A stretch of DNA of 26,921 nt, taken from a virus. A model generated the notes under the pieces. That model had not been told where the DNA came from, ran no database searches, and saw only the letters and a list, made by a program, of their open reading frames with translations. Each line of letters begins with the position of its first letter. The first letter of the stretch is position 1. The position numbers and the translations under genes were made by a program. This document shows positions 2,102 to 26,449 of the stretch, one piece after another. The stretch covers positions 1 to 26,921 of IMG/VR virus record IMGVR_UViG_3300025952_000002; one strand, 5' to 3'.

Positions 2102-2791
2102 ATGAAAAAACGAAAAGATTTAATTCTCGAAGAGTTAACGGACTATTGCCATGATGTTGAAGACAAAAAGATCATAGCCTGTCAAAAATATATTTGGGCT
2201 TGTCAGAGGTTTCTCAATGACATTAAAAGAATTGGTTCCGATGATTTCCCGTATGTTTTTAATCCCCAAATGTTTATGAATCTTGATGGCGGAGAAATAG
2301 AGGACTATTATCCGGCAGATAGATATTTGGGTTGGATGGGATTATTTAAGCATAGCAAAGGGGAGCTGGCCGGTCAACCGAAAGTGCCTGTTATTTATGA
2401 AAAATTTGTATATGGTAACATTTACGGATGGGTTCATAGGGATACTTATTTAAGACGGTTCCGGCGATCATATGAGCAGCTAGCACGGAAAAATGCCAAA
2501 AGCCAGGATAAGGCGATACAATCATTGTATGAAATATCTGCTTTCGGTGAACAAATGGCAGAAGCTTACGTAGCAGCAACGAAGAAAGCCGACACAAGGC
2601 ATGTTTGGGGTGAAGCTAAATGGCTTTATAATAATTCCGAATATTTAAGAGATAGTTTTACGTGCAAGTTTGAACAGGACTTAATGCAAGTTGTGATCCG
2701 TCACAAAAAGAGCGGGTCTTTTTTTATGCGGTTATCTAAAGATGATAAAAAAACCGGGGACGGTACATGTCCGCAGTTTATGTGCCTCGAT
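2102..2791 (+). CDS. terL: Terminase large subunit, exon 1 (ATPase N-terminal part)
   Basis: Residues 1-230 of the packaging motor ATPase. Family landmarks are YCHDVEDKKIIACQKYIWAC near residue 15, and the Walker A-type loop LARKNAKSQ at 127-135 followed by the AYVAATKKADTRHVW strand (154-169). The Walker B strand QFMCLD ends exactly at D230, where the group I intron begins. Without splicing, translation adds only five codons (KVFVA) and stops at 2809, giving a truncated protein without the catalytic Glu or the nuclease. ATG 2102 is in the family frame; an ATG at 2098 is out of frame and leads to a 18-residue peptide. GGAGGG at 2081-2086 is rather far (15 bases). Joined to exon 2 the protein is 599 residues, normal for the family. 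Confidence 0.9.
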
Positions 2792-2865
2792 AAGGTATTT
2801 GTCGCTTAGTGTAGTAATACATTAATGAAAATCGGGCAAAATCGGTGAAGGCTAAAATCCACAAC

Positions 2866-2894
2866 TTGCAATAATAGACGCAATATGTTATAAT
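2866..2894 (+). promoter_or_regulatory. Intron-internal sigma70-type promoter for the endonuclease
   Basis: TTGCAA (2866-2871) and a perfect TATAAT (2889-2894) are separated by exactly 17 bases, 21 bases before the endonuclease ATG and directly upstream of its GAGGTGAT ribosome-binding site. It would make the endonuclease independently of terminase transcription. T4 intron endonucleases are known to use their own internal promoters; here this is inferred from sequence. Confidence 0.65.
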
Positions 2895-2914
2895 ATATAT
2901 GAGGTGATTATAAC

Positions 2915-3946
2915 ATGAAAAGCGGCATTTATTGCATAAGGAGCGTTTCGCAAAACAAGATATATATAGGTCAGAGCGTTGATTTAAATCGGAGAATATT
3001 AAATCATAAATATCTTTTAAAAAAAGGAAAACACTCAAATGAAATATTGCAAAGACATCATGACAAGTATGGTATTAATGATTTAAAGTTTGAAACGATT
3101 GAGTTTTGCGAAATAGAAAATTTAGATGATAGAGAACGTTACTGGATTAATTATTATGATTCGATGAATAGAAGCAATGGTTTTAATATGGAATCAGGAG
3201 GAAATGAAAATAAGAAAATTTCAGAAGAGCGAAGAAAAGCAATAACCGGAAACGGCAACCCAATGTTCGGAAGAAAACATTCCCAAGATTTTATAAATTA
3301 TATGAGAATACACAATCGTGCTTCAAGCGATAAATTAACCTTAAAAAATGTTGAAGCAATCAAGCGAAGGCTTTTAAATGATGAAAGACAAGTTGAATTA
3401 GCCAAAGAATATGATGTCACAATATCTACCATAAACAAGATAGCGAAATGCAAAAATTGGGAATGGGTACTGCCGGAATTGAATGACAATTTAATAAAGA
3501 TTTCTGATGAGCTAAAATTAAAACGAGATAACGAATTCAGAAGATTGTTTTCAAAAGGATTGCCGATTTATGAAATTGCGAAAACAACAAATTGTGAATT
3601 TTCTACTATAAAAAAGGTTTTGGGCAAAGAATTAAATGCAAAAAATAGTAACTGGGCATTGACAAAAAAATCTATCCTTGAAGATTATAAAAAAGGATTA
3701 CGTTGCAAAGAGATAGTAAATAAATATAATATTGGAAAATCAACATATGTCAGAATAATTTCTAAAGAATACAATAACGAAAAAACAATATTAAAAGAAA
3801 AAATATTATCTCTTAAAAAGTTAGGAATGCCAAATGTAAATATTGCCGAAACCTTAAATATTCATCGAACAACAGTAACCGAATATCTTAAAAAATATGC
3901 TCCGGAATTTTTAGTGAATCATGTTAATACCGAGGTAAGCGGTTGA
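2915..3946 (+). CDS. GIY-YIG homing endonuclease inside the terL intron
   Basis: A 343-residue intron-encoded nuclease that should cut intronless terL alleles and so spread the intron. The N-terminal GIY-YIG catalytic domain shows GIY at 4-6, YIG at 17-19, Arg27, Glu74 (in DDRERYWINYY) and Asn91 (GFN), matching the I-TevI pattern. Residues 112-123 (GNGNPMFGRKHS) are a NUMOD3-type DNA-binding motif. After that come about four helix-turn-helix units (144-180, 204-236, 252-284, 293-326), suited to reading a long target. The catalytic residues are intact, so it is probably active. ATG 2915 has GAGGTGAT upstream. The last codons (VNTEVSG) run into the ribozyme core and supply the P4 3' strand. It is more AT-rich than its neighbours. 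Confidence 0.93.
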   Translation: MKSGIYCIRSVSQNKIYIGQSVDLNRRILNHKYLLKKGKHSNEILQRHHDKYGINDLKFETIEFCEIENLDDRERYWINYYDSMNRSNGFNMESGGNENKKISEERRKAITGNGNPMFGRKHSQDFINYMRIHNRASSDKLTLKNVEAIKRRLLNDERQVELAKEYDVTISTINKIAKCKNWEWVLPELNDNLIKISDELKLKRDNEFRRLFSKGLPIYEIAKTTNCEFSTIKKVLGKELNAKNSNWALTKKSILEDYKKGLRCKEIVNKYNIGKSTYVRIISKEYNNEKTILKEKILSLKKLGMPNVNIAETLNIHRTTVTEYLKKYAPEFLVNHVNTEVSG

Positions 3947-4113
3947 CCACCGCCACCGTAGAGCGTAGAGATTGAGCGATATGGAAGCAATAACATCTCC
4001 AAGAGTGCCCGACAACCAAAAAAAGGTTGTCTTTTTATTGGTTGAAAATGTACGCCGAACTTATGAAAAATCATAAGAATCAAGGGATAAAAAGCCCTTG
4101 AGATAACAAAGTG

Positions 4114-5223
4114 GAATACCATTTGCATGAAACAACAGAATATTATGATATTGGCACTTCAGGTATGAAAACTAGAAAACAACCGCTCTTATCAATTATC
4201 ACAACTGCCGGATTTGACCTAAGTCATCCATGTTATGCAGTTGAATATGAATATGTTTCTAAAATTCTTAATCCCAATATTGACGTTGAAAATGATAGAT
4301 ATTTTGTCGCTATCTGTGAGGCTGATTTAGATGAAGATGGCGCTCTTGTCGATCCTATTGATAGTGACGAGATACGAATAAAATCAAATCCGATCATCGG
4401 TGATACCGAAACCGGGAAGGAATCAATTTTAATTGATTTGTCCGAAGCACTAGATAAACCCGAGAAAATGCGGGATGTTAAGACAAAGACATTTAACATA
4501 TGGATTAATGAGCGGACTGCTGGTTACATGAACATGGAAAAATGGAAAGCTTGTGGTGCCACAAACAACAATCCCTTTCCAGACGTTCATGGAATGAAAT
4601 GTTTTCCTGGGATTGACCTTTCGGCCACACTCGACTTAACAAGTGTTGGTTTTGATATTCCTTTAGGTGAAGAAAGATATGCAATTTTATCTCATTCGTT
4701 TATGCCGGAAGAAACCTACAAAAAACGCATGAAAGAAAACAAGATACCGTTCAATTTGTGGCGAGAAAACGGATGGTTGACCGTTACCGATGGGGCGGAG
4801 GTCGATTATCATTTTGTGTTAAAATACATTCTTGATATATTTGAAAAATACGAATGGCCCAAGAACGAGTTTTGTTTTGATAAGGCTATGGCAACATGGT
4901 TATCTCATGAACTTCAAGAATCTGGTTTTTCGGTGCCAATTGAAATATATCAAGGATACCGTGACTTAAGCGAACCTACCAAGGATTTGAGGGCAAAGGT
5001 TTACAGCGGTAAAGTAATACATGACAATAACCCCGTTTTAAATTGGGCCATGTCAAACGCAATTATTCGGAAAAGCCCGAACGAATCGATTATGTTGGAC
5101 AAAGACAAAACGGCAGAAAAAATCGACCCGGTAGCGGCGTTAATCAATGCCCATAACCGCGCTATGGTCAACGAACCGGCTAAGAGGTCTATTTATGAGG
5201 AAAGAACGTCATTCAGATTGTAG
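4114..5223 (+). CDS. terL: Terminase large subunit, exon 2 (Walker B Glu, nuclease)
   Basis: Residues 231-599 of the spliced protein. It opens with EYHLHET, completing the Walker B box (CLD joined to EYH), and continues GMKTRKQPLLSIITTAGFD, the coupling motif at about 260-265. The RNase H-like nuclease that cuts the concatemer at the end of packaging follows, with the first acidic residue in PGIDLSATLDLTSVGF (Asp at about 398) and later FDKAMATWL. The family ending KIDPVAALINAHNRAM is present. The reading frame is open from a GTG at 4111, but there is no ribosome-binding site and that codon is intronic, so this is an exon and not a separate gene. The next gene begins 10 bases after its stop. 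Confidence 0.92.
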   Translation, partial: EYHLHETTEYYDIGTSGMKTRKQPLLSIITTAGFDLSHPCYAVEYEYVSKILNPNIDVENDRYFVAICEADLDEDGALVDPIDSDEIRIKSNPIIGDTETGKESILIDLSEALDKPEKMRDVKTKTFNIWINERTAGYMNMEKWKACGATNNNPFPDVHGMKCFPGIDLSATLDLTSVGFDIPLGEERYAILSHSFMPEETYKKRMKENKIPFNLWRENGWLTVTDGAEVDYHFVLKYILDIFEKYEWPKNEFCFDKAMATWLSHELQESGFSVPIEIYQGYRDLSEPTKDLRAKVYSGKVIHDNNPVLNWAMSNAIIRKSPNESIMLDKDKTAEKIDPVAALINAHNRAMVNEPAKRSIYEERTSFRL

Positions 5224-5233
5224 GAGGTTTTTT

Positions 5234-5416
5234 ATGTTCAAATTACCTAAATTAAACCTAAAAAGGCCGCATTTTACCGATGAATTCAAGCAAGAAGTCG
5301 GATTAATCGGCTTTTTTTGTTGTTTCTGTGTTGGTATAGGCGCATATGATTGGCGAATTGCTTGTATTATTGGTGGATTAATGGGGATGTGGTTTCTGTT
5401 CCCTAGAAAGGGGTGA
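5234..5416 (+). CDS. Small two-helix membrane protein between terL and portal
   Basis: A 60-residue protein: a basic N-terminal stretch (MFKLPKLNLKRPHFTDEFK), then a hydrophobic segment around residues 20-34 (VGLIGFFCCFCVGIGAY), a short turn, and a second one at about 38-56 (IACIIGGLMGMWFLF). It probably inserts in the host inner membrane. AGGAGG at 5222-5227 sits 6 bases before ATG 5234; the frame is open further upstream, but only inside terL and without a ribosome-binding site. Small unknown genes are common at this position in HK97-type head modules. A holin role cannot be excluded, but the place in the head operon does not favour it. Confidence 0.65.
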   Translation: MFKLPKLNLKRPHFTDEFKQEVGLIGFFCCFCVGIGAYDWRIACIIGGLMGMWFLFPRKG

Positions 5417-5420
5417 TTGA

Positions 5421-6674
5421 ATGGGCTTTATTACGCGACAAGCTATAAAAAACTTATCGATCCGTGAGCTTGACCATTTAATGGAATATAGTTGGGGCCG
5501 CCCGACTACTGCTGGGGTTCCGGTATCTGAACAGTCTGCGATGAACTTAATCGAAGTCCACAAATGTGTCAAAGTCCGGGCGGAAACGCGGGGATGCTTA
5601 CCGGTAGGGATTTACAAAAAGCGCCCCGATGGTCGAGGCAGAGATCCGGCATATGACCATCCGTTGCAAGATATTTTAAATGTTGCTCCAAACAATGAAA
5701 TGGATTCCCAAACTTATTATGAAAGAATGGAAATCTATTTTTCTTTATGGGGTAATGATTATTCAATTATCACACGCAATGCAAGCCGCAATAAAAACGT
5801 AACCGAACTTTACCCGGTTCCTGCATATCAAATGCAGGTTAAACGTGATCCTGAAACTCAGGATCTTTTTTATGAATATCGAGATCGGGGTCAAACCGAG
5901 CGATTACCGCCCGAAAAAGTGTTTCATATTCGTGGGATGTCGTTTGATGGTCTGACGGGTATTTCGACTATTGGAATGGCACGTGAGGCAGTGGCGCAAG
6001 GGCTTGCAATGCAGGAGTTTACAAACCGGTTTTTCGGTAACGGAATGAATGCGGGTGGAGTAATCGAATACCCCAACGCGCTAACGCCTGAAGCAAAAAA
6101 AAATCTAGTGCAGGGTTTTATGGAGGCCGGAGGTGGATTAGAGAATGCTTGGCGGCCTATTGTGATAGAAGAAGGTGCCAAGTATAACAGAATCCCGATG
6201 TCTTTTGTTGATGCCCAATTTATTGAGGTAATGAACCTTAGTAAAGAGGACATCGATGGTCTTTTCCGTGTTCCACCCCATATGGTTGCGAACCTAAAAG
6301 AATCCACGAACAATAACATTGAACACCAAGGAATTGAGTTTGTAACCTATTCCTTATTACCGATGATAACCCGGTTTGAAAGGATGGCCAACTGGCGATT
6401 ATTAACAAGAGCCGAACGAGCAGCCGGTTATTATGTCAAGGTCAACGTTGATGCCTTGTTGCGCGGTGATGCTGCAAGCCGGGGTGAATATCTGCAAAAG
6501 AAACGTCAGAATGGCGCTTTATCGGCCAATGAATGGAAAGGTCTTGACGATGAGAACCCGATTGAACAAGAGGGCGGCGATGCTTATTTGGTCAATGGTA
6601 ACATGATCAGCCTTGAAACCGCTATGAAGCAGCAACCGAGGACGAATACAACGAACGGAGGAAGTAAGAAATGA
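5421..6674 (+). CDS. Portal protein, HK97 family
   Basis: A 417-residue protein forming the dodecameric ring at one capsid vertex, through which DNA is packaged and ejected. It carries the HK97-type portal signs: an early SEQSAMNLIEVHKCVKVRAE block, DHPLQDILNVAPNNEM (about 75-90), the YDYSIITRN-like strand, PEKVFHIRGMSFDGLTGIS (about 165-185), and GLFRVPPHMVANLKES (about 285-300), followed by a polar Gln/Asn-rich tail. Length is normal. ATG 5421 follows GGGGTGAT. Its stop overlaps the protease start (ATGA at 6671-6674), so the two are coupled in translation. A terminator-like hairpin lies within the gene at 5847-5871. Confidence 0.92.
   Translation: MGFITRQAIKNLSIRELDHLMEYSWGRPTTAGVPVSEQSAMNLIEVHKCVKVRAETRGCLPVGIYKKRPDGRGRDPAYDHPLQDILNVAPNNEMDSQTYYERMEIYFSLWGNDYSIITRNASRNKNVTELYPVPAYQMQVKRDPETQDLFYEYRDRGQTERLPPEKVFHIRGMSFDGLTGISTIGMAREAVAQGLAMQEFTNRFFGNGMNAGGVIEYPNALTPEAKKNLVQGFMEAGGGLENAWRPIVIEEGAKYNRIPMSFVDAQFIEVMNLSKEDIDGLFRVPPHMVANLKESTNNNIEHQGIEFVTYSLLPMITRFERMANWRLLTRAERAAGYYVKVNVDALLRGDAASRGEYLQKKRQNGALSANEWKGLDDENPIEQEGGDAYLVNGNMISLETAMKQQPRTNTTNGGSKK
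5847..5871 (+). terminator. Terminator-like hairpin inside the portal gene
   Basis: GATCCTGA (5847-5854) and TCAGGATC (5858-5865) form a perfect 8-bp stem with a three-base loop, followed directly by six T residues (5866-5871). This is the layout of a rho-independent terminator, but it lies in the middle of the portal coding sequence (codons for RDPETQDLF). It may attenuate late transcription or be silent under antitermination. Confidence 0.5.
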
Positions 6675-25738: not shown

Positions 25739-26449
25739 ATGAGAAGGATAATTTTAATAGGAGCTTTGGTAATTACATTAATTTGTGGGATTTCATTTGA
25801 AGTTTGTGCTGCGTCAATTGAAATTAAAGGAATTGACAAAAAGACAGTAATGGATGTTTCAACAAAGGCCATGCTTGAAGCTGGTTTTAATATTATGTCC
25901 GTAAATGATTATCAAATAATATTTAAAGCTGATTCTAAAAATCCTACTCATCAAATTTTCTTTGGAACACGTTTTAATGTAGTTCCTGAAATTAGGATAT
26001 TTTTAAACTTTATCCAAATAGAACAGACTGTAACAATTACTGGAGAAAGCAAGATAGTATCAAACCCCAATAGTGCTTTTGAAAAATCGACTTCATTTAA
26101 GCCGGATGACATCGTGCCATATCTTAATTATATTAAAGAAAAGTTTTATGGTTCGATTATGTTTGGCTTAAGCTTTTCAAATAAAAAAGTAAAAAAATGC
26201 TATGAAGTTTTGAGAGTATGGAAAAACAGTAGCGTTGAAAAAGCAGGAATTGAAGTCGGTGATTTAGTAAAAGAGGTTAATGGAGAGCCAGTAAAAAAAA
26301 TGAATTTTAAAGAATTTGATTTGCTTTTCGATGTTCCGGAAGGAACCAAAATTGATTTAATTATCATTAAAAAATCTGGCGAAGAAAAACAAGTCACTAT
26401 TGAAAAAGCCTTTGTTCCCGGTGAGTACCAATATTTATTAAAGCAATAA
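25739..26449 (+). CDS. Secreted PDZ-domain protein
   Basis: A 236-residue exported protein. Residues 1-24 are a signal peptide (MRRIILIGALVITLICGISF, cleavage near VCA). Residues 25-135 form an alpha/beta domain I do not recognise (IEIKGIDKKTVMDVSTKAML; QTVTITGESKIV). Residues 139-223 are a PDZ domain (MFGLSFSNKK, SSVEKAGIEVGDLVKEVNGE, GTKIDLIIIKKSGEEKQVTI) without an attached protease. It would sit outside the cytoplasmic membrane and bind peptide ends. It lies 46 bases after the regulator gene and before a strong terminator, so it may share that promoter. The ribosome-binding site is weak (GAGG). It is probably a cargo (moron) gene acting on the host envelope. Confidence 0.72.
   Translation: MRRIILIGALVITLICGISFEVCAASIEIKGIDKKTVMDVSTKAMLEAGFNIMSVNDYQIIFKADSKNPTHQIFFGTRFNVVPEIRIFLNFIQIEQTVTITGESKIVSNPNSAFEKSTSFKPDDIVPYLNYIKEKFYGSIMFGLSFSNKKVKKCYEVLRVWKNSSVEKAGIEVGDLVKEVNGEPVKKMNFKEFDLLFDVPEGTKIDLIIIKKSGEEKQVTIEKAFVPGEYQYLLKQ

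Follow-up and report, generated by a model that had tools for sequence, protein, structure and literature searches.

The large terminase gene (terL) of a virus recorded in IMG/VR is interrupted by a 1322-nt insert which, judged by homology and covariation, is a group IA-type intron. In the window, by which we mean the whole stretch of 26,921 nucleotides analysed, terL lies as two open pieces (2102-2791 and 4114-5220) with these 1322 bases between them, and the insert houses an ORF of 343 amino acids. We hold it very nearly certain that the insert is a mobile intron carrying a GIY-YIG endonuclease gene in its L5 loop, which splits terL at the Walker B motif and would both self-splice and home. 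The features behind this reading are collected in Table 1.

Table 1 Features of the split terL gene and its intron (positions in the window; L002, L003, L048 and L200 are relatives described in the text)
Feature	Position	Strand	Basis
terL exon 1, N-terminal part of the TerL ATPase with Walker A region ARKNAKS, ends at Asp230 (...QFMCLD)	2102-2791	+	PF03354, 59.5 bits; alignment with intronless relatives; purifying selection against L002/L003
Group IA-type intron, 1322 nt	2792-4113	+	Not in 29 relatives at the exact site; homologous cores and covariation
Internal guide, GGUAUUU to exon 2 (P10) and GUCG to exon 1 CGAU (P1, U.G at the splice site)	2794-2804	+	11 contiguous pairs over the junction
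P2 hairpin with GUAA loop, contains the in-frame TAG 2807-2809	2806-2825	+	RNA fold; same hairpin in cr111_1 and other introns
P3 5' strand UCGGGCA, partner 4006-4012	2832-2838	+	Covariation, 34 introns
P4 5' strand (2843-2847) and P5 5' strand GGC (2850-2852)	2843-2852	+	Homology alignment; fold
Candidate sigma-70-like promoter of the endonuclease gene, TTGCAA-17-TATAAT	2866-2894	+	17-nt spacing and position same in L048 and L200; scan
343-aa GIY-YIG homing endonuclease with NUMOD3 and tandem helix-turn-helix units, in L5	2915-3946	+	Pfam GIY-YIG, 34.5 bits; orthologs in L048 and L200; model
P5' GUU (3923-3925) and P4' UACCG (3928-3932)	3923-3932	+	Homology alignment
P6 hairpin GCGGU/ACCGC	3939-3953	+	Homology alignment; fold
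P7 5' strand GCGUA, guanosine-binding site, partner 4051-4055	3963-3967	+	170/170 paired
P7.1 extension GAGAU/AUCUC	3968-3999	+	Homology alignment
P3 3' strand UGCCCGA	4006-4012	+	Homology alignment
Intrinsic-terminator-like hairpin GACAACC/GGUUGUC with U5	4011-4036	+	Scan; fold; relatives
P8 CAACCAA/UUGGUUG, strands 4013-4019 and 4038-4044	4013-4044	+	Homology alignment; fold
P7 3' strand UACGC	4051-4055	+	Homology alignment
P9 hairpin (4060-4077) and P9.1 hairpin (4080-4101)	4060-4101	+	Fold
Conserved intron 3' end GATAACAAAGTG, terminal G	4102-4113	+	Same motif at the 3' ends of related introns
terL exon 2, catalytic Glu231 (EYHLH...), rest of the ATPase, nuclease domain and stop	4114-5223	+	PF20441, 136 bits; alignment of relatives

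Insertion site and the predicted spliced terminase

Intronless terL relatives were collected with exon 2 as the query, and both exons were compared by tblastn with 31 related contigs. Residue 230 adjoins residue 231, with 0 nt between them, in all 29 loci that cover the junction (27 distinct). The DNA of the closest relative, L002, reads CTCGAT/GAATACCATTTG here, identical to the exon ends of the window, and this CTCGAT/GAATACC junction pins the insertion to 2792-4113. There is no freedom to move either boundary, because the first intron base is A where exon 2 begins with G, and the last base of exon 1 is T where the intron ends with G. The insertion, as read from these alignments, separates Asp230 from Glu231 of Walker B. 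These boundaries and the Asp/Glu split had been put forward in an earlier note on the sequence, which also suggested looking for intronless relatives with this junction, and both were borne out, together with the end rules of group I introns: a U precedes the 5' splice site and is paired U.G with the guide, and the final intron base (4113) is G.

The corresponding residues of L002, D236 and E237, are invariant in 12 aligned TerLs; across 27 relatives the Glu never varies, and L018 alone has Glu in place of the Asp. In a structural model of the L002 TerL, whose best solved match is HK97 TerL (6z6d), strand 230-236 terminates at the junction Asp, placing the junction at the end of an ATPase beta strand.

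The joined exons encode a protein of 599 amino acids that aligns with the TerL family without extra or missing residues at the junction, as the earlier note had expected. They give a single continuous match to TerL_ATPase (PF03354) over positions 2-176 of the 178-position profile, scoring 88.5 bits compared with 59.5 bits for exon 1 alone and 86.2 bits for intronless L002, and they also match TerL_nuclease (PF20441, 134 bits), so that ATPase and nuclease would both be present after splicing. Exon 2 differs from L002 at 139 synonymous and 23 non-synonymous codons, and in both exons the substitutions relative to L002 and L003 fall mostly at third codon positions, indicating purifying selection and a terL gene in use. 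Translation of unspliced TerL would terminate six codons into the intron at the in-frame TAG (2807-2809), from which it follows, as had been proposed, that packaging would depend on RNA splicing.

Ribozyme core and its homologues

The proposed P1/P10 guide held up: GGUAUUU-GUCG forms 11 contiguous pairs with the ligated exons, of which two, the U.G at the splice site and the pair at the inner end of P10, are G.U, and equal pairing was reached in 48 of 60,000 random 30-mers of the window. For the intron RNA lacking the ORF, the minimum-energy fold (z -5.4) contains P2, P3, P4, P5, P6, P8, P9 and P9.1; P7 is absent from it because it forms a pseudoknot with P3. Homology, covariation and folding together place the core helices P3-P8 and P4-P6 in order. 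The helices drawn in the earlier note (P2, P3, P4, P6, P7, P8 and P9) were thereby recovered, and P8 is best read as CAACCAA/UUGGUUG, the nearer hairpin at 4011-4031 being a terminator-like alternative. P7.1, an extension that lies between P7 and P3', suggests group IA.

Sequences related to the intron occur in many phages. Its 5' part is similar to an intron in the major head gene of the crAss-like phage cr111_1, and its 3' part resembles segments of staphylococcal, Clostridioides, Caldibacillus and other phages, some with annotated endonucleases. Homologous cores sit in the MCP and tape-measure genes of other phages, and a scan with one core motif returned 117 viral stretches. P3 was paired in 227 of 238 cells over 34 distinct introns, compared with a mean of 185 and a maximum of 198 in 5000 shuffles, a control that leaves the relatedness among the introns in place. 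P7 was paired in 170 of 170 cells, a count that is partly biased as many introns were found via a motif spanning P7', which makes P3 the cleaner test; the versions GCGUA/UACGC, GAGUA/UACUC and GACUA/UAGUC among relatives are compensatory changes. The identification as a group I intron is supported by these homologous cores, the covariation in P3 and P7 and the ORF-excised fold.

The Infernal search that the earlier note had suggested did not give the expected hit: the Rfam model RF00028 yielded no match on the intron at its gathering score and none by cmscan at E<=10, its best score being a weak 11.7 bits (E 0.03). The model also fails on most of the homologous introns, finding at its cut-off one of 12 loci around similar introns (L046 alone). 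We attribute the miss to the ORF of about 1 kb in L5 and to the poor reach of RF00028 for this clade; an Rfam match is a detection criterion for group I introns, not a defining one.

Unannotated cores were also seen in or beside the tape-measure and head-tail genes of TPWB06, CBP1, phiCDKH02 and ROSA (L037, L038, L039 and L041), some of them overlain in the public records by spurious small ORFs. In L098, around 931-2650, there are apparently two cores separated by about 1.6 kb, with the first P4 followed by another P4'-P7-P3' set; they are possibly two introns in one gene or a nested pair.

The endonuclease gene and its putative control signals

The ORF matched GIY-YIG (PF01541), NUMOD3 just below the curated cut-off, and several helix-turn-helix domains. 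G4-I5-Y6, Y17-I18-G19, R27 and E74 are invariant across the three orthologs, so the motif and the catalytic Arg and Glu are present. A model of low confidence (pTM 0.35) shows the catalytic domain followed by four helix-turn-helix-like units in a row. The orthologs are 42% (L048) and about 50% (L200) identical to it; a single-sequence query against viral contigs found no relatives, and an alignment of two endonucleases used as the query was successful. Protein and ribozyme share sequence: the reading frame begins within L5, and the codons at its end also specify P5', P4' and the 5' strand of P6.

The endonuclease is probably made from its own promoter within the intron. Simple scans find many promoter-like sites in the AT-rich window (13 versus 6.9 expected), and the case for this candidate therefore rests on its conserved position. 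The -10 box lies in one arm of a 10-bp inverted repeat (2885-2894/2907-2916), whose loop contains the Shine-Dalgarno sequence and whose other arm ends at the start codon. The predicted hairpin (2885-2916, -9.0 kcal/mol) would mask the start codon only when transcription begins further upstream, a layout that by analogy resembles that of T4 I-TevI, where a hairpin hides the start region in long transcripts only (PMC2988022). The T4 td intron is likewise of group IA and combines a GIY-YIG endonuclease with an internal promoter, although it resides in a different host gene.

The terminator-like hairpin at 4011-4036 shares bases with P3' and with the 5' strand of P8, and it cannot form together with P8. 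Of 28 introns that carry an ORF in L5, 15 have such a terminator in P8; staphylococcal introns related to one another make up the majority of these, leaving perhaps three independent cases. None was found in 20 introns lacking an ORF or in three whose ORF lies in P7.1. In fold predictions, RNA that ends with the U run adopts the terminator, and P8 forms when its 3' strand is present. One model is a built-in switch between endonuclease and TerL, in which RNA from the internal promoter, without the 5' strands of P3 and P4, would terminate at P3'/P8, while full-length terL RNA would form P3 and then P8, read through and splice. We regard such a switch as rather unlikely. In a model of antitermination by P3, adding the 5' part lowered the pairing at the base of the terminator only from 0.97 to 0.81, so thermodynamics alone lends a P3-driven switch weak support and does not speak for a strong one. 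We found no description in the literature of a terminator overlapping P8 for T4 introns, nor of one embedded in a group I core in a search that was thin on subscription journals.

Introns at the same site in other terL genes

Two further terL genes are interrupted at the identical site. One, in IMGVR_UViG_3300032038_002440 (L048), has an intron of 1291 nt and was the single true same-site intron among eight contigs returned by a junction pattern scan, the other seven being chance matches. The second is a prophage of a cultured strain, Lachnoanaerobaculum orale DSM 24553 (NZ_RRCM01000001.1; L200), with an intron of 1206 nt at 4900-6105. All 14 exon bases at the junction, CTCGAT/GAATACCA, are identical to the window in both. 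They also share with it an orthologous GIY-YIG endonuclease in L5, a TTG(C/A)AA-17-TATAAT promoter and a terminator in P8, but differ in having GACUA/UAGUC as P7, in lacking P2 and in nesting the terminator inside P8.

The TerL of the window is about 44% identical to those of L048 and L200. Between the window and L200, TerL identity is 44% and endonuclease identity 50%; between L200 and L048 the values are 65% and 53%. The endonucleases have diverged less than the distant TerLs predict, and close TerL relatives are empty on both sides (L002 and L003; L030), which favours lateral movement into a conserved site, although identities near 50% make a coarse clock. The three ribozyme cores do not group together: that of the window lies closer to introns of other phages, with a P8 almost identical to the P8 of staphylococcal introns, which may reflect a reshuffling of ribozyme and endonuclease.

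Discussion

In the mechanism we favour, the intron RNA within the terL transcript would fold to a catalytic core and excise itself with guanosine and the P1/P10 guide, and the exons would be ligated without loss into the 599-aa motor ATPase-nuclease. The endonuclease would cut intronless terL at the conserved Walker B sequence, whereupon the intron would be copied in; empty alleles exist among the relatives. Termination at the terminator-like hairpin in P8 could lower the amount of full-length terL RNA.

Other explanations of the insert were weighed against this mechanism. A dead or non-splicing remnant, in a terL pseudogene or a defective prophage or genome, would suit the reduction of P5 to wobble pairs (GGC/GUU) and the failure to match Rfam, yet both exons and the endonuclease gene are open, differences from L002 and L003 are largely at third positions, the core helices are all intact and the guide matches the exons exactly; we consider decay very improbable. 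An assembly chimera is what one might suspect of an IMG/VR record whose near relatives, L002 and L003, do not have the insert, but an intron at the same base with an orthologous endonuclease recurs in two independent records, one of them the prophage of a cultured bacterium (L200), which leaves an artefact hardly credible.

Walker B of TerL is also known to host inteins (mycobacteriophage TerL1-e, PMC5050341), mobile elements that splice as protein rather than RNA, and a translational bypass element could be imagined as well. Both are ruled out by the frame, in which TAG 2807-2809 stops translation six codons in; moreover, the endonuclease ORF is separate from TerL, with a ribosome-binding site and start of its own, and a group I core is present. 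A group IA-type intron that would self-splice and home is retained as the favoured explanation.

Group I introns in terL are already known from LL-H, Moonbeam, SIOphi and phiAGATE. That of Lactobacillus phage LL-H was reportedly described by Mikkonen and Alatossava in 1995. In the LL-H genome (NC_009554), ...IAVWF/EEF... compared with the uninterrupted ALWFEEF of intronless phiJB places this endonuclease-ORF intron within Walker B too, but in another TerL subfamily, about one codon further upstream and with an HNH rather than a GIY-YIG endonuclease. The earlier suggestion that this Walker B position may be less described is thus partly right: the exact site differs from that of LL-H, and the LL-H intron and the TerL1-e inteins (PMC5050341) also reside in the motif. 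The terL genes of the Bacillus phages Moonbeam, SIOphi and phiAGATE (PMC4299906, PMC11878797) differ from that of the window in holding two or three introns each, mostly with HNH/VSR-type ORFs. The SIOphi and phiAGATE introns splice in infected cells, and some phage introns failed to splice in vitro and required cell factors (PMC11878797).

Two things are added to the known terL introns: the use of one site, with a single endonuclease family, in three lineages, and a putative terminator placed inside the core. The candidate promoter, this terminator and the two further lineages at the site also go beyond the earlier note. Mobile introns appear to settle repeatedly in the motif with which the packaging motor hydrolyses ATP, which is occupied at one exact site in three lineages whose TerLs are down to 44% identical and, in LL-H, at nearly the same spot. 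As Rfam misses nearly the whole clade, annotated phage genomes probably hold many split genes labelled truncated or 'hypothetical'. The layout of promoter and terminator, if real, would show how an endonuclease can be expressed inside a structural operon without disturbing, or while controlling, its host gene. Elsewhere in the window, a PDZ-domain protein is encoded 3' of the phage structural genes (25739-26449), which is unusual company.
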